Part shown: positions 8,079 to 14,864 of the stretch, piece by piece
How positions within the stretch are numbered: the stretch's first letter is position 1
How the letters are laid out: each line of letters starts with the position of its first letter
Source of the DNA: Prevotella histicola JCM 15637 = DNF00424
GTDB taxonomy: Bacteria; Bacteroidota; Bacteroidia; Bacteroidales; Bacteroidaceae
Direction of reading: 5' to 3'
Assembly (NCBI RefSeq): GCF_000613925.1
Contig: NZ_BAJX01000005.1
Coordinates: 62,001 to 126,000, forward strand
Length of the DNA stretch: 64,000 nt
Notes under the pieces: generated by a model
Databases searched by the model: none
What the model saw: only the letters and a program-made list of their open reading frames with translations
What the model was told of the DNA's origin: nothing
Program-made: the position numbers and the translations under genes

Positions 8079-9344
8079 TTATTGCTCGAATTCTGCTTTT
8101 AGAATATTCAATACATTATCAACTGTCTCTTCCTCCAAGTCAGCCTTCTCTATCAACATCTCACGTGGAGCGTTCAATACCTGGCGAGCCGTATCAAGCC
8201 CGATACCCTTAATGGCATCGATAACCCACTGATCAATTTCGTCAGAGAATTCATCCAAATAAATATCCTCCTCGGCATTCTGTTCATCAAGCTCACGGAA
8301 GACATCAATGGTATAACCGGTCAACATACTTGCCAGCTTAATGTTCATACCACCACGGCCAATAGCAAGACTAACCTCCTCAGGCTGCAAATAAACTTCA
8401 GCCTTTTTGTTCTCTTCGTCAACCGTCAAGCTGCTGACCTTAGCAGGAGAGAGTGCACGTTGAATAAAGAGTTTTGTATTGGCTGTCCAGTTGATAACGT
8501 CCAAGTTCTCGTTACAAAGCTCACGTACGATACCATGTACACGACTACCACGTACACCAACACAAGCTCCTACTGGGTCAATGCGCTCATCGAAGCTCTC
8601 AACAGCAATCTTTGCACGTTCACCCGGCATGCGAGCAATCTTACGAATTGCTATCAAACCGTCATTGATCTCTGGTACCTCAGCCTCTAACAGACGTTCC
8701 AAGAACTCTGGAGCAGTACGGGAAAGGATAATCTTTGGATTGTTATTCTCATTGTCAACACGAAGGATTACGGCACGTACTGTCTCACCCTTACGATACT
8801 GATCACGAGGAATCTGCTCACCCTTAGGAAGTATCAGCTCATTGTTTTCATCATCAACAAGCAGCACTTCACGCTTCCAAGTCTGATAAACCTCACCAGA
8901 GATAATCTGTCCAACGCGGTCCTTATACTTATTATAAAGTGAGTCATGCTCCAACTCAAGGATCTTTGAAGCAAGCGTCTGACGCAGGTTTAGGATAGCA
9001 CGACGACCGAACTTATTAAAGTCGACCTTCTCACTAACATCCTCACCAACCTCATAATCCTGTTCTATCTTACGAGCCTCTTTCAGGGCAATCTCCTTGT
9101 TTTCATCCTGAACTTCACCATCTGCCACAACCACACGGTTACGATAGATTTCAAAGTCGCCCTTATCTGGGTTCACAATAACGTCGAAGTTTTCATCGCT
9201 ACCGAAGATTTTGGCAAGGACATTGCGGAAACTCTCTTCCAACACGCTTACCAATGTCGTACGATCGATACTCTTGGTGTCTTTAAACTCCTTGAAAGTC
9301 TCGATCATATTCGGACGTTCTTCTTCTACTTTTCTTGCTGCCAT
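8079..9344 (-). CDS. nusA: Transcription termination/antitermination factor NusA
   Basis: RNA-polymerase-binding elongation factor. The 421-aa protein has an N-terminal polymerase-binding domain (from MIETFKEFKDTKSIDRTTL), an S1 domain around residues 145-215, and two KH domains containing VGACVGVRGSRV and SLAIGRGGMNIKLAS. Its length suits Bacteroidota, which lack the acidic repeats of E. coli. An alternative start is the internal Met at residue 13. It begins 4 bp after rimP ends; 135 bp without a gene separate it from infB. Confidence 0.97.
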   Translation of the reverse strand: MAARKVEEERPNMIETFKEFKDTKSIDRTTLVSVLEESFRNVLAKIFGSDENFDVIVNPDKGDFEIYRNRVVVADGEVQDENKEIALKEARKIEQDYEVGEDVSEKVDFNKFGRRAILNLRQTLASKILELEHDSLYNKYKDRVGQIISGEVYQTWKREVLLVDDENNELILPKGEQIPRDQYRKGETVRAVILRVDNENNNPKIILSRTAPEFLERLLEAEVPEINDGLIAIRKIARMPGERAKIAVESFDERIDPVGACVGVRGSRVHGIVRELCNENLDVINWTANTKLFIQRALSPAKVSSLTVDEENKKAEVYLQPEEVSLAIGRGGMNIKLASMLTGYTIDVFRELDEQNAEEDIYLDEFSDEIDQWVIDAIKGIGLDTARQVLNAPREMLIEKADLEEETVDNVLNILKAEFEQ

Positions 9345-9348
9345 AGCT

Positions 9349-9816
9349 TTACTTGAAACTTATTATGTATTTTGTATATTTTACTTTATCCATCTTGTAC
9401 GCATGGTCTACATCCATTTTCACAGGACGTTTCTTACCTTCCACATGTACTTTCTCATTGACAGCCACAACAAAGTCGTTGCCATCAACGCTCTTTAATA
9501 CGCCTTTGACTTTCTTTCCGTCCTTATCCAGCACCTCAACTTCTTTACCAACGAAGATCTTATATTGCTGTGGAACCTTGAAAGGCTGTCCTAATCCAGC
9601 TGAACCAACCTCAAGTTCATAGTCTTCTTCGTCACGTGAGAGTCTATCCTCTATATACTTACTCAACTCCACGCAATCTTCAATCCACACACCATCAGCA
9701 TGGTCAATCTCAACAACGATCTTGTCATCGGAACTGATTTGGATATCAACCAAGAAGTAGTCTTTTCCTTCCAACCACTCCTCTACGAGGCTCTTTACTA
9801 CGTTTTTATCTATCAT
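9349..9816 (-). CDS. rimP: Ribosome maturation factor RimP
   Basis: Small protein needed for maturation of the 30S subunit. It has 155 aa. Typical RimP segments are visible: VEIDHADGVWIEDCVELSKY, the YELEVGSAGLGQPF motif (the family's LEVSSPGLDRP equivalent), and the C-terminal SH3-like VKGVLKSVDGNDFVVAV. It is the first gene of the rimP-nusA-infB operon, with a promoter at 9877-9909 and a leader hairpin close to its start codon. Confidence 0.95.
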   Translation of the reverse strand: MIDKNVVKSLVEEWLEGKDYFLVDIQISSDDKIVVEIDHADGVWIEDCVELSKYIEDRLSRDEEDYELEVGSAGLGQPFKVPQQYKIFVGKEVEVLDKDGKKVKGVLKSVDGNDFVVAVNEKVHVEGKKRPVKMDVDHAYKMDKVKYTKYIISFK

Positions 9817-9909: not shown

Positions 9910-11164
9910 TGTTTTCTGTTTTTTATCACCTACCTATTGTATAACAGAAGCTATCAGAAAGGAGTAATACAGGTGAGTCCCTTACATCAGACCAGAACCC
10001 ATCTGACATAACAACGCCTATGGAAAAGAAGTAGCAACAAAGCCTTTCTTGTAAAATAAAATCAACGACATGCTTTCCATAGGTCCTCTTTTGCAATGTA
10101 AAAGACGCCCTTTTGCATTGTAAAAGATGCCCTTTTGAGGTGTAAAAGACGCCCTTTTGAAGTGTAAAAGGACGTCTTTTAGGACCCTATTCTTAAGTAC
10201 CTGAATATCTTAACGTTACAAATCCGCAGGAAAATGAGTTTTGTTTATTTCCCTCATCATTACGCTCTTCTTTTTGTAAATATATTTTCTCAAACATTAT
10301 TTCCACCTCCTTACAGCTCTTACTTTATCCTTATCGTTCACACATATAACAAACGACCAATACAATTGGCCTACAAAGCGTTTAAGACGAGCTACATATC
10401 CAGTCGAAGAATAGTCCAAAGTTCTTACACAAAATCTGCCAGGCACACAGATAAACCTTGAACTAAAGGAACAATGGGGAAGCACTGTCATACTAAGTCG
10501 TTAATTAATGATATTTTCAATACTGCACGAATCAAGCCACAGCTCTGCTTTATAGGGTACGAGAAGATTATATGAAAAAGCAAATCAACACACACAATAT
10601 AGATAGAATGTAACGTAACTTATAACTTCAAGCAACGGGATCTGAAGATAAAGGAGAGGAGCAAATAGTAAGAGAAAAAGTTCTTCTGAAATATGGACTA
10701 ATAAACTAAAGTTCTTAAATAATAAGGTACACAAAGTTCCTAAGAAGACAGAACTAAATGCAATATCACAGATGTACCAATAGCACAGAAAGCGATAGAG
10801 GCGAAGCGTACAGAGTCATGATAACTTTTGAGATAAATCTTATATGTATAAATTTCTAATAAAATTAGCATACAAACTCCGTTATTTCATGCGCCAACAA
10901 CACCTCCATACCCACCATTGCAATATTCTTAACAATCCCGCTCTCTATGTAACATCTCGTCAAAGTTCTAAACTTAGGAGACACACTTATAATTCCAAAT
11001 TTCAGAAAGCCCCTCTAAACTATCAAGATAGGAATGCAACGTTTAGGGTTAGGCATGTCGCTTTGGGAGTAATACAGATATTCTTGGAGCATATCTTAAT
11101 AAACATCCACGTCACTATAGACAGAAACTAAAGGCAAAGCAAACAAAACTTTTTTAACAGAATA
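9910..11164. other. Gene-free stretch (apart from repeat array A)
   Basis: No open frame here looks like a protein: those present are short, lack recognisable domains and have poor codon patterns. The only structure I can support is the 22-bp repeat array at 10088-10180, flanked by AGGTCCT and AGGACC in inverted orientation. The rest is AT-rich and unassigned. Confidence 0.6.
10088..10180. repeat. 22-bp palindromic repeat array A (four units plus a half)
   Basis: Four units start at 10088, 10110, 10132 and 10154, and a half unit at 10176. Each is a 17-bp imperfect palindrome of the form CTTTTGCAATGTAAAAG followed by a 5-bp linker such as ACGCC or ATGCC. The first three units (10088-10148, 61 bases) are the exact reverse complement of 37213-37273 in array B. 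Inverted AGGTCCT/AGGACC flanks enclose the array. Confidence 0.9.
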
Positions 11165-11196
11165 TTTGGTACTTTTAAACAAAATTAGTAGCTTTG
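11165..11196 (+). promoter_or_regulatory. Promoter of the structured RNA
   Basis: TTTG at 11165-11168, then exactly 20 nt, then TAGCTTTG at 11189-11196: a full match to the Bacteroidota -33/-7 consensus. It is 447 bp upstream of the first protein start, so it defines a long untranslated transcript. Confidence 0.8.
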
Positions 11197-11202
11197 CAAC
11201 GA

Positions 11203-11521
11203 CAAGTTATTATCAACTTGTCCAAACATATTGGAATTGAGCATAAGACTCCATACTATGTATAGTAAATGGTCTACTGCTCAGAAAGGACGTTTACAGA
11301 CGTTATCTTTTGGTCCTCAAACTTCGCAAATTTGACCAAAACCCAAAAGAGATACGGCAACGGAAACGTTCACGTTAGTTGTATTATTTCTATGTTCACT
11401 TATGACATTGATTATAATATAGCATTGACGTGGGCCTCTAGCGTTGCCTATCCTTTGGGTTAGGCAATGCGAAGGCCTGAGGACTGGGATAGGTAAGTGA
11501 AGACTCCCACGTCTTTTTTTT
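11203..11521 (+). ncRNA. Unidentified structured RNA of about 320 nt
   Basis: The stretch has a consensus promoter just upstream and an intrinsic terminator at its end, with no convincing reading frame between. The 5' end forms a perfect hairpin, GACAAGTT (11201-11208) with AACTTGTC (11215-11222). The 3' domain is closed by GACGTGGG (11427-11434) pairing with CCCACGTC (11506-11513). Inside it TTGCCTATCC (11444-11453) can pair either with GGTTAGGCAA (11458-11467, one mismatch) or with GGATAGGTAA (11487-11496, one G-U), but not both. I looked for hallmarks of RNase P RNA, tmRNA and SRP RNA and found none; I cannot exclude a divergent 6S RNA or a leader of the operon at 11643. The start is estimated from the promoter. 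Confidence 0.6.
11427..11521 (+). terminator. Terminator domain of the structured RNA
   Basis: GACGTGGG pairs perfectly with CCCACGTC across a branched loop, followed directly by eight T residues (11514-11521). The long loop is unusual for a plain terminator and fits the end of a structured RNA or a regulated attenuator. Confidence 0.7.
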
Positions 11522-11642
11522 CACCTAAATTTTGGACCTTGCTGCAGGAGAGAGGCATAAGAATATTTCACTTCCGTATTCTCGTGTCCTTTAAACAACC
11601 TGCCTATACTTGGGAGTGGTAAGGCTTATAAAATTAAAATCT

Positions 11643-12227
11643 ATGAAACGAATTCTATTTTTCATTGTGATGACTTTGTGTACTATGACTACATTTGCAC
11701 AAGAAACAAAAGAACAAATCCAGAAAAGCGAAAAACGCGCCAAGAATCTACAGACCTTACTAGACAAGTATTCTGACACAAAATGTGGTGACGAAACCAT
11801 TGACGGCTTCGGTCAGTCCGTTCGCGATGCAGCGGTATTTGCAATTGCAAACAGAGAGAAGCTAGAGGGTCTTTATTATCGCCAGATGGGGCAGACAAAG
11901 GATGGAGTAACAGACGCTACTATCGTAAAACCAAAATTGGAAGATTGGTTAGAGCTACTAGCAACAGTTACAGCTGAAACCAAATCTATTGGAAATGCAG
12001 TAGATAATGCAAAAGCTGCAGGTGAGCAGATGAAACAAATAGCAGAAAATGCGAAAAACAACAAGAATCCAATGAAGATGGCTAAACTTGCGAAGATGGC
12101 TAAGGGAGCTGGTGTCGTTATGGAATTTGGCAATAGTGCGACCCCTATTCTTTTAGAAGAGAGTGCTGGGCAATTAAAGGCTGTTCAGGATATTATCGAA
12201 ACGATAAAATCAGGTAAGAATCTATAA
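11643..12227 (+). CDS. Secreted helical hypothetical protein
   Basis: Unrecognised 194-aa protein. It has a signal peptide, MKRILFFIVMTLCTMTTFAQ; I chose this Met rather than the one 11 codons upstream because it puts the signal sequence at the very start. The mature part is mostly predicted helix, with lysine- and alanine-rich segments (for example AKNNKNPMKMAKLAKMAKGA near residue 145). It is the first gene of a four-gene rightward operon; its stop overlaps the next start by one base, which suggests translational coupling. Function unknown, probably periplasmic and working with the CsgG-type protein. Confidence 0.75.
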   Translation: MKRILFFIVMTLCTMTTFAQETKEQIQKSEKRAKNLQTLLDKYSDTKCGDETIDGFGQSVRDAAVFAIANREKLEGLYYRQMGQTKDGVTDATIVKPKLEDWLELLATVTAETKSIGNAVDNAKAAGEQMKQIAENAKNNKNPMKMAKLAKMAKGAGVVMEFGNSATPILLEESAGQLKAVQDIIETIKSGKNL

Positions 12228-13045
12228 TGAGGTATTATGTCCTCTCCGTTCTGCTTCTGCTTGTACATGGCACAATATGTCATGCACAGGCAGAAAGCAG
12301 ACCTGTCGTAGGTGTCACAGAGTTCACTTGCGACGAAAAAAGTCCTTATACAATGTTAGTAACCGAGAAAGTCGTGGAGATGCTAACCAACACTCATCGA
12401 TTTATTGTTGTTGACAGGACTAGTCGTAATAAAGTAGAAGAAGAACTTGAGCTACAGAAAAGTGAAGCTTTTTTGGATAGCAAGAATCTAGCACAACAAG
12501 ACGCAGCACTTGGTGCTAGTATGCTAGTAACAGGGCATATTATCAAGATACCTGTTTATCGCGTCCACAATGGTGATGGAAGTGTAAGAGGTTACAAAGC
12601 AAGTGTTGCCTTTCAGTTGAAAGTTGTAGACGTCTCTACTGGTATTAGTAATGAGGCACAGAGCTTTCAAGGAAAAACAAGCAAAGAAATGCTTTCTCCA
12701 GAAAGCGCTGTCACTGCTGCAATGCAGTCAATCAAAGATGACATTTATGAGTATTTCCGAATCAACTTCCCTCTCACAGCAAAGATTGTTAAGGTGCTAG
12801 ACAAAAAGACTCTTGTCATTAATGCAGGTATAGATACTGGCGTAAAAGTTGGAGATAAATTTATTGTCCAAACAATAGAACTACTTGACGGCAAACCATA
12901 CCCATCCGATATAGGAACAATAACTGTAAGGAAACAATCAGGTTCCTCTTTCTCTGAATGTGACGCTACATCTAAAATAATATCAGCAATAAACTCTGCG
13001 CAACAAGGTGTGGTTATTCAATGTAGTTTAATCATAAAGAAGTAG
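12227..13045 (+). CDS. CsgG/HfaB-family secreted protein
   Basis: The 272-aa protein has a signal peptide ending HAQA and then an alpha/beta domain with the CsgG pattern: RPVVGVTEFTCDEKSPYT, a long helix with LTNTHRFIVVDRTSRNKVEE, and DAALGASMLVTGHI. From about residue 185 a second domain, with NAGIDTGVKVGDKFIV, resembles the C-terminal domain of flagellar FlgT. CsgG proteins form outer-membrane export channels for curli; relatives such as LpoB act in envelope assembly. No lipobox is seen, so a curli-type lipoprotein pore is doubtful. No curli subunit gene is nearby. It overlaps the upstream gene by one base and is 2 bp from the next. Confidence 0.75.
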   Translation: MRYYVLSVLLLLVHGTICHAQAESRPVVGVTEFTCDEKSPYTMLVTEKVVEMLTNTHRFIVVDRTSRNKVEEELELQKSEAFLDSKNLAQQDAALGASMLVTGHIIKIPVYRVHNGDGSVRGYKASVAFQLKVVDVSTGISNEAQSFQGKTSKEMLSPESAVTAAMQSIKDDIYEYFRINFPLTAKIVKVLDKKTLVINAGIDTGVKVGDKFIVQTIELLDGKPYPSDIGTITVRKQSGSSFSECDATSKIISAINSAQQGVVIQCSLIIKK

Positions 13046-13047
13046 CT

Positions 13048-13940
13048 ATGAAAAAAAAACTTATACTATTATTGACTATCTTGTCTATCTGTCTTTCATA
13101 TACGTATGCGCAAGAATTGACATCAAAAGTAGAGAATATTGCGACGGCGAAGCCCAAAATAATGGTAATTCCCTACACACATCAAGGAGAAGATATACGT
13201 ATGGTGTTGGAAAGTGATGTCAACAAACGTATCGCCTTGACAAAGATAAAAGAGGCATTTGATCAACGAGGATATACAACCGTTGATTTCTTTGGACGGG
13301 TTAAAACTCTGTCTAAAGCCAATGCTTTAGGAAGTAATCAACAACAAGATGCAAAGTCACTTATCATACAACAATCTGGGGCAGATATATACGTTGAAGC
13401 AGAAATCAGTATTCTCGACTCGCCAACGGGCAACTCTGTAAAGATTATCATGTCGGGATATGATGTCTCAACGGGCAATTCACTAGCAAATGCTGTATGC
13501 GAAAGCGGAAGATTCTACACGGAAGATTACGGCAAACTGGCATCAAGGGCAGCCGAGAGTGGTATTAATGGTTTCCTTAACTCTATGCAGAACAAACTCA
13601 TGGACATAACAGAGAACGGACAATCAATCAGTCTAACAATCGGATTTGATCAATCTTCAATGCTATCGATGTCTACAGAAGTAGGGGATGAAGGACTTCC
13701 ATTATCTGATGATATCGAAATGTTCGTTGCAGGGAAAAGTTATAAGGAGAACTATCACATACAGGTACAAGCGACAAACAAATGATTTTTGATGACATAC
13801 GTATTCCACTGACAGATGCCGAAGGCAGAACTTTTAACGCTAATAAGTTCGGATTAAAACTCCTACAATATTTTCGTTCAAGGAATATTAAGGTCGAAAG
13901 AACTATCAGCAACAACATGATTGTAATCACTATAAAGTAA
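13048..13940 (+). CDS. DUF6175-type secreted protein (frameshifted)
   Basis: A signal peptide, LLTILSICLSYTYAQ, is followed by a domain with KPKIMVIPYTHQGEDIRMVL and GADIYVEAEISILDS, resembling the DUF6175 family of Bacteroidota. The frame stops at 13785. In the next frame, however, MIFDDIRIPLTDAEGRTFNA and the ending SNNMIVITIK (stop at 13940) clearly continue the same domain. Restoring one A in the AAA run at 13780-13782 joins them into about 297 aa. This is a homopolymer-type loss like the other breaks in the window. Its role is unknown; it is the third gene of the CsgG-type operon. Confidence 0.7.
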
Positions 13941-13946
13941 AACTTC

Positions 13947-14864
13947 ATGAATATCCGCAAGTTATATATCATCACAGCATTATTTCTTACCGTCATTAGC
14001 TGTATTCATGCACAAGGGATTGAGATTGGTTTTGTTATACCAACAAATCAAGATGAACTAAGTGTAAACACGGCAAGAATGCTTCGCAGCAGGATTCTTC
14101 CTGCATTCACGGCAGAAGGTATCGAAACATCAGAAGTAAGTTCCATCGCTATTAAGCCTGAACTCAGCTTCACAAACTACCAAGAGGCAGAAGGAGGAAT
14201 GAGAAATATTCATACTTCTGAGGTTCAAATAAATCTCATCTGTCAAAATCTTATTACGGGAACGGTATTTGCCAGTCGGACGTTCAGTCTACAAGGGCAA
14301 GGCTATTCTGCTGATGACTTAGTTAAAAATGCGTTTTCTCAAATAAAACCAAATGATGAGAATGTAAGATCATTCATACACGCGGCTAAGAGACAGATAT
14401 TGAGTTACTACTCTAAGAACCTGCGAGCTATACTCAGTAGAGCACAAACTTTTGCCCAGCTCCACCAATACGAAGAAGCATTATCTTTACTCTTTTCATG
14501 CCCATCCACTTTAACCAATTACAATAGTGTAAATGCTGCCATCAACAATATCTACAAACAATACCAAAGAAATGAATGTGGCAACCTTTTACTACAGGCA
14601 CAAACTGAATATTCTAATGGTAATTATGAAGCATGTGCTGAGATTTTAAAACAAATAGACATAACAAGTCCTTGTGCTACAGAGGCAAAGAGTTTATGTC
14701 AGCGCATTAAACAATCGCGAGATACAGAGGCACGACGCATTATTGAATTAATAGAGAATCAGGCAAAAAGAGAAGTTGATTTAGAGAAACAAAGAATAAG
14801 AGCTGCTAGAGATATTGCTGTTGCGTATTACAAACAGCACACTAACCTAATCTTGATATTCTAA
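13947..14864 (+). CDS. Secreted hypothetical protein with helical repeat region
   Basis: The 305-aa protein has a signal peptide ending SCIHAQ. Residues 25-140 contain a mixed domain (EIGFVIPTNQDELSVNTARM), and residues 150-250 look like tetratricopeptide-type helices (AQTFAQLHQYEEALSLLFSC, TEYSNGNYEACAEILKQI). The end is a charged helix, QAKREVDLEKQRIRAAR. It may recruit or scaffold the other operon products in the periplasm. It begins 6 bp after the previous gene. No named family is recognised. I tested for a frame break at the short C-terminus and found no longer continuation in other frames. Confidence 0.7.
   Translation: MNIRKLYIITALFLTVISCIHAQGIEIGFVIPTNQDELSVNTARMLRSRILPAFTAEGIETSEVSSIAIKPELSFTNYQEAEGGMRNIHTSEVQINLICQNLITGTVFASRTFSLQGQGYSADDLVKNAFSQIKPNDENVRSFIHAAKRQILSYYSKNLRAILSRAQTFAQLHQYEEALSLLFSCPSTLTNYNSVNAAINNIYKQYQRNECGNLLLQAQTEYSNGNYEACAEILKQIDITSPCATEAKSLCQRIKQSRDTEARRIIELIENQAKREVDLEKQRIRAARDIAVAYYKQHTNLILIF

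Follow-up and report, generated by a model that had tools for sequence, protein, structure and literature searches.

The element at positions 11165-11521 of the window, by which we mean the whole 64,000-nucleotide stretch of Prevotella histicola DNA that was analysed, is a real structured RNA, larger than first noted, and is one member of a multi-copy Bacteroidales family. Its 5' half is joined to its 3' half by three long-range helices (X, K and Y) and, judged from its sequence and that of its relatives, it is very probably a cis-acting 5' leader. Our main reading is that its output is transcription attenuation, to which we give a probability of about one half. The leader may turn the genes downstream of it on and off. 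An earlier note on this DNA had described a free-standing structured RNA of about 320 nt. The structured RNA stood up to analysis; its free-standing nature and that extent did not.

The full promoter, the hairpin at the 5' end and the closing stem followed by eight T that had been claimed for the locus are all present (Table 1), and the sequence bears out the claim that the region encloses no credible protein. The promoter motif is one that we take to be of the Bacteroidetes type, the closing stem is strong, and the 5' region of the RNA varies between subtypes. The MFE of 11200-11521 was −118.9 kcal/mol, against −71.7 (sd 5.2) in 100 shuffles, giving a z of −9.1. Compared in 50-nt bins, the nearest orthologue found (L173) had 78-100% identity throughout 11151-11750 and 34-38% across 10901-11150, upstream of the promoter. 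Conservation with this orthologue spans the promoter, the U-run and the gap behind it, and continues into the ORF. A consensus promoter/terminator scan reported neither the promoter nor the terminator of the leader, which we attribute to a promoter type outside the scan's coverage and to a closing stem that spans ~80 nt. The divergently oriented rimP-nusA genes (window 8079-9816, − strand) lie ~1.4 kb from the leader.

Table 1. Positions in the window of the leader elements and of the operon behind them; pairing p-values are uncorrected and come from related copies.
Feature	Position	Strand	Basis or remark
Presumed Bacteroidetes-type promoter	11165..11196	+	TTTG 11165-11168, then TAGCTTTG 11189-11196
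5' hairpin	11201..11222	+	Sequence and fold
Second 5' hairpin	11238..11283	+	MFE fold
Strand a (GGACGTTT)	11288..11295	+	Conserved
X1	11312..11319	+	Pairs with X2
Hairpin H (TCAAA/TTTGA), loop K1	11317..11335	+	Stem covaries
K1	11322-11328	+	Loop of hairpin H, complementary to K2
Y1	11340..11347	+	Pairs with Y2
J (GCAACG)	11357..11362	+	Pairs with A1, p 5e-3 against nearest relatives
Strand b	11366..11374	+	Proposed antiterminator partner of c; b:c p 7e-4
Strand c (GACGTGGG)	11427..11434	+	Partner b or d
A1 (CGTTGC)	11442..11447	+	Pairs with J, not A2
B1 (CCTATCC)	11447..11453	+	Partner B2 (p 4e-4) or 3' side of the 5' domain (p 4e-3)
Y2	11454..11461	+	Pairs with Y1, covariation
A2 hairpin (GGC/GCC), loop K2	11463..11477	+	Covariation
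K2	11468-11474	+	Loop of A2 hairpin
X2	11478..11485	+	Pairs with X1, covariation
B2 (GGGATAGG)	11486..11493	+	Pairs with B1
Strand d (CCCACGTC) and U-run 11514-11521	11506..11521	+	Terminator-like 3' arm
Z, segment past U-run	11540..11557	+	Can pair with 3' arm; ~4 pairs in window copy
Operon behind leader	11643..14864	+	Family searches

By blastn, similar DNA was found in 16 of 60 genomes including the own genome; the matches in two of these (G003 and G012) were to the promoter stretch only, and several other genomes held more than one copy. A covariance model of the 3' domain (R1), built from 24 aligned sequences that include the window's and come partly from the same genus and order genomes counted here, had matches in 112 of the 150 genus genomes, at most 13 in any one, and in 30 of the 198 order genomes (24 of 151 genera). 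With a stricter cut-off in a phylum sample, R1 matched the own genome alone (1/296). The own genome has two copies, a third R1 match being the opposite strand of the first copy. Its second copy (L055:1501-1592, + strand, which is G000:C37:48621-48712) is strongly diverged, forming the same rod from other sequences (K is TCTGGAC/GTCCAGA), and lies ahead of an 82-codon ORF. Weak R1 matches (~90 nt, 30-41 bits), several of them near contig ends, are divergent copies by folding, which ruled out chance matches; the second own-genome copy belongs to this set. The named carriers among the matches listed from a pattern scan are Prevotella, Xylanibacter rarus, Phocaeicola massiliensis and Bacteroides bouchesdurhonensis, and Muribaculaceae and Parabacteroides records are also among those listed; many records are metagenome-assembled. 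Exact pattern matches in MAG records labelled Clostridia and Lachnospiraceae (L216, L219) may be binning errors or transfer. Copies were also seen near one another, as a divergent pair in L182 (6503-6609, −, and 11910-12016, +, 5.3 kb apart), a convergent pair in L188 (4075-4182, +, and 9384-9492, −, 5.2 kb apart) and two near-identical tandem copies in L109 (1331-1419 and 2456-2544, +, 1.1 kb apart).

For the comparisons below, 141 elements were reduced to 134 by removal of 7 without the anchor motif, and to 124 by a k-mer redundancy filter. Repetition, an inverted-repeat character and the weak matching of the model to the opposite strand of some copies are also what a DNA-level repeat would display, acting as a cruciform or as a site of recombination or transposition. 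We hold this to be extremely unlikely, as the sense strand is better folded than the antisense strand in 123 of 124 copies, helix X contains 29 G.U against 17 A.C, and the orientation is fixed relative to promoter and gene. Nor did viral contigs yield an exact pattern match, or phage and plasmid collections a blastn match, at the sensitivities used; an origin of the RNA from phage or plasmid was rejected on the same searches.

The position of the copies relative to genes was examined by looking for a downstream ORF with an ATG start no more than 700 nt away and a length of at least 60 codons. Such an ORF, co-oriented with the element, was present in 138 of the 141 distinct copies, at a median of 70 nt from the model end or U-run and with its start at 24-110 nt in 110 of the 138; an antisense ORF was longer than the chosen one in 6 of the 138. 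The promoter motif TAnnTTTG occurred in the 330 nt upstream of 115 of the 124 non-redundant copies, compared with 35 for the reverse complement and 25 for shuffles. The placement ahead of co-oriented but very diverse genes indicates a cis leader and not a free-standing RNA, and of the two alternatives left by the earlier note, a leader or an independent RNA, the leader is the better one; with conservation running to the start codon at 11643, independence finds no support. As far as sequence can tell, a leader position ahead of an operon and behind a promoter of its own is that of an attenuator. A small RNA with its 3' end at the U-run and a role in trans would likewise have its own promoter and a terminator-like end, similar short transcripts being also expected from attenuated leaders. 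Against such an RNA, which we consider very unlikely, stand the fixed place ahead of co-oriented ORFs, the conservation that continues across the gap and into the ORF, and the presence of up to 13 copies per genome whose X and Y sequences differ.

The operon in the window encodes, in order, an ORF without a family over the cut-off, a CsgG/LpoB-type protein, a DUF6175 protein and a TPR-like protein, and also holds a small ORF at 13782-13940. Pfam was applied to 132 first ORFs in sets of 54 and 78, with the first 25 families listed per set; 3 of the 138 first ORFs, whose starts lie beyond 400 nt, were left off the ORF list, and of the 135 on it, L048, L099 and L167 fell outside the Pfam run. The BspA-type LRR_5 repeat was found in 15 (6/54 and 9/78) and the type I dockerin in 6 (2 and 4). 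The remaining families listed had one or two members each, further leucine-rich repeats excepted, and no metabolic theme was seen among the Pfam families listed. Kinase or FHA-like operons were recognised by eye in the ORF lists, and in P. massiliensis and B. bouchesdurhonensis the element stands ahead of closely similar lipoprotein operons. Association with defence genes was rejected, as PADLOC, run on 78 of the 132 first-ORF proteins, gave matches (HerA, helicase/DrmD, AbiGi-like) of one to three members each, with no common theme. Small ORFs with a SRREFFKKAAKG-type start (Tat-like, by eye) and a Cys-rich body were seen at L035, L036, L058, L070 and L082, and are followed by radical-SAM-like proteins at L035 and L036. 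This set may be a peptide-maturation operon and possibly a main member of the regulon.

The earlier note had named Rfam and covariance analysis as checks, and the latter, besides finding conservation in relatives, revealed that the strongest pairing partners of the 3' half lie in the 5' half, where that note had seen none. Candidate pairings between the halves were proposed by reading the alignment, and were tested by comparing the duplex energy of a copy's own two strands with that obtained using the strands of other copies, or of the 15 most similar copies (nearest relatives). For X1:X2 the energies were −12.05 (own) and −3.21 (other) kcal/mol, and for Y1:Y2 −12.69 and −5.12 kcal/mol, in 124 copies. 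The p-values for X and Y, which like all those given here are uncorrected and derive from related copies, were ~2e-22, and ~3e-22 against nearest relatives, while the crossed controls X1:Y2 and Y1:X2 were null in the same 124 copies. Of 112 copies (12 of the 124, in another register, were omitted), all seven positions of K are paired in 110 and all eight positions of X in 78, X having 103 distinct strand pairs. Beyond its two common forms, the K loops have changed on both sides in 7 of 134 copies, the double changes including CTTAGCA/TGCTAAG, TCTAGCA/TGCTAGA and TCTCACA/TGTGAGA. Covariation is thus overwhelming for X, K and Y, and since their strands follow one another in the order X1, K1, Y1 ... 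Y2, K2, X2, the helices nest as one long rod.

The rod was also sought in a held-out set of 14 low-scoring copies, of which one is an anchorless member of the 141 and thirteen lie outside it; the set includes the second own-genome copy, which had been inspected ahead of the formal test. Inspection of the unconstrained MFE folds showed the same type of rod, made of largely different sequences, in these 14 copies. In the duplex test, from which one near-duplicate was removed, the energies were −38.7 kcal/mol with own strands and −18.8 kcal/mol with those of other copies, and the own strand was the best partner in 13 of 13 copies.

Such a rod could instead be a constitutive element of mRNA processing or stability, cut by RNase III or protecting the mRNA, with no regulated choice of folds. 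This would agree with an unconstrained MFE in which K, and hence the rod, is present in 129 of the 134 copies and missing from 5, with a mean advantage of 16.4 kcal/mol for the rod over two separate domains, and with the rod helices being by far the best supported. We nevertheless regard it as unlikely, because support also exists for c:d with its U-run, for B1:B2, and for the stems of H and A2, none of which a continuous rod needs. The outer three pairs of the H stem covary with p 1.5e-11 in fixed register, a test separate from one H-stem count that took the best of four shifts and so favours pairing. The A2 stem is often GGT/ACC in divergent copies. Given these stems, K may be a loop-loop contact within a four-helix core, or else part of a continuous helix.

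Next to these helices, strand c has two competing partners. The c:d pairing covaries against nearest relatives (p 7e-6), a signal that is possibly part indirect because b and d are both complementary to c. A complete c:d stem was counted in 103 of the 128 copies left after 6 of the 134 had been dropped for want of an extractable c or d strand; the count is biased towards pairing, since the best of four shifts was taken. The mean energies of the two pairings are near equal (b:c −15.8, c:d −15.6). When 35 nt were left off the transcript, c was paired upstream in 123 of 124 copies. In the full MFE, c was paired with the upstream side in 121 of the 124 and with d in a single copy; the isolated 3' domain folds with c:d in 97 of 124 copies. 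In sequence terms, an antiterminator-like b:c and a terminator-like c:d that exclude each other are both conserved, which is the arrangement of an attenuator, and two alternative global folds probably exist. The pairings a:b (p 0.92) and a:d (p 0.23) were not significant against nearest relatives, so that local folding within the 5' half rests on P1b (p 3e-3) and H.

The description of the RNA as switch-like, with competing helices, is supported by these results, even if the helices originally proposed were half right. There, TTGCCTATCC was to pair with either GGTTAGGCAA or GGGATAGG. Both are within reach; pairing with the former (A1:A2) had p 0.56 against nearest relatives and was rejected, while pairing with the latter had some support. 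Stated as exclusive helices, TATCC/GGATA has some covariation and TTGCC/GGCAA has none.

Conservation beyond the U-run bears on a further reading, in which RNA polymerase would read through constantly and the state of the rod would open or close the 3' hairpin or Z near the start codon, thereby controlling translation. Z covaries in the main set (p 2e-7), and the longest T run is 2-4 in 29 of 124 copies, as in weak terminators. In the held-out set, however, Z was not significant (p 0.29), the window copy retains few Z pairs, and a T run of at least 5 is kept in 95 of 124 copies; we consider translation control quite unlikely.

Under transcription attenuation, the reading that we prefer, the 5' half would pair with the 3' half during transcription through b:c, J:A1, Y, K and X, giving the long rod. 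As the 3' half emerges, the rod would be the first fold to assemble, and it would represent the read-through state: with c held by b, the terminator hairpin c:d would be blocked and RNA polymerase would enter the operon. A signal that makes local folding within the 5' half more stable, or separates the halves in some other way, would allow c:d and B1:B2 to form, placing a terminator before the U-run and keeping the operon off. Given its greater stability than separate domains, the rod would have to be overcome with help for the off state to arise. The short T runs (2-4) of 29 of the 124 copies and the lack of a metabolic theme among the downstream genes also weigh against this reading. Comparison of the copies backs X, K, Y, H and c:d, and less strongly b:c, J:A1 and B1:B2; the order of folding, termination by c:d and a regulated choice of folds are what we infer from them.

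Rfam 15 gave no family at the gathering threshold at the locus, and at E values up to 10 the region 10900-11700 had five chance-level matches only, none of them to the 6S families (RF00013, RF01685, RF01693). A 6S-type identity was dropped. RF01693, described in Rfam as a suggested Bacteroidales 6S, has its own-genome match on C55, a different contig from that of the leader. RF00013 matched nothing in the own genome, and neither did RF01685, a weak negative because its cut-off was passed in 0 of 14 control genomes too. Across 12 other loci there was one unrelated match, to RF01693 in L266. This P. massiliensis RF01693 gene (L266:1052-1228) lies ~2.5 kb upstream of a leader copy (around L266:3744-3778). 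SRP RNA was likewise rejected: the own-genome match of RF00169 is on contig C35 and not at the locus, where the earlier note had found no SRP RNA motif. Two candidate factors fared no better. Cyclic di-GMP is an unlikely ligand, as GGDEF was found in 3 of 150 genus genomes, one of which lacks an RNA match, and is absent from the own genome. A NusG paralogue as a required factor was tentatively rejected since counts judged by eye were unrelated to RNA copy number, with one NusG match each in the own genome, G069 (7 RNA matches) and G096 (12 RNA matches), in an incomplete search that misses some, having come back empty in 37 of 150 genomes.

How Prevotella and related bacteria control their genes is poorly understood. 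A common leader ahead of BspA-type, CsgG-type and accessory operons would suggest that these belong to one regulon and perhaps respond to a new signal, and a very long covarying rod that may serve gene control is a clean testable case, present in named isolates of Phocaeicola massiliensis, Xylanibacter rarus and Bacteroides bouchesdurhonensis.

In the accessible parts of the literature searched (including PMC8040213, PMC7160235, PMC2864571 and PMC7366714), the leader RNA was not recognised. One of these reports describes HMP2_1881, a predicted Bacteroidetes motif of 108 bp that is often near radical-SAM genes and of which 13 of 13 instances were reported expressed (PMC8040213). Compared by that description only, HMP2_1881 would fit domain 2 of the leader RNA and could be a fragment of it, hence a prior partial prediction. 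We claim novelty only with respect to Rfam 15 and the literature searched.

With a riboswitch in mind, we observed a conserved multi-helix core and a terminator-like platform, the role of the core as a sensor being putative. We tentatively entertain, as a possibility on the unlikely side, that the family is an orphan class of riboswitch-like RNAs through which gut and rumen Bacteroidales would respond to some global signal, either an envelope-state metabolite or a second messenger. X, H, Y and A2 would form the four-helix sensor core, with a loop-loop contact of 7 bp closing it, and the choice between rod and terminator would control many surface and accessory operons.

Attenuators are built from strands 1-2-3-4 and riboswitches carry expression platforms. 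The leader resembles both in its promoter, structured leader, exclusive b:c and c:d stems, U-run and operon. It differs from attenuators in that no leader peptide or known aptamer was identified, in that termination is predicted, and in having as its antiterminator side a rod of more than 200 nt with long-range helices. Second-messenger riboswitches such as the c-di-GMP classes occur in many copies per genome ahead of diverse, often surface-related genes, and so does this RNA; unlike them, it lacks an Rfam match and belongs to a genus in which GGDEF is rare. With RF01693 (Bacteroidales-1) it shares a rod-like form, a similar size and the same order, yet it is a different family, multi-copy and placed as a leader.
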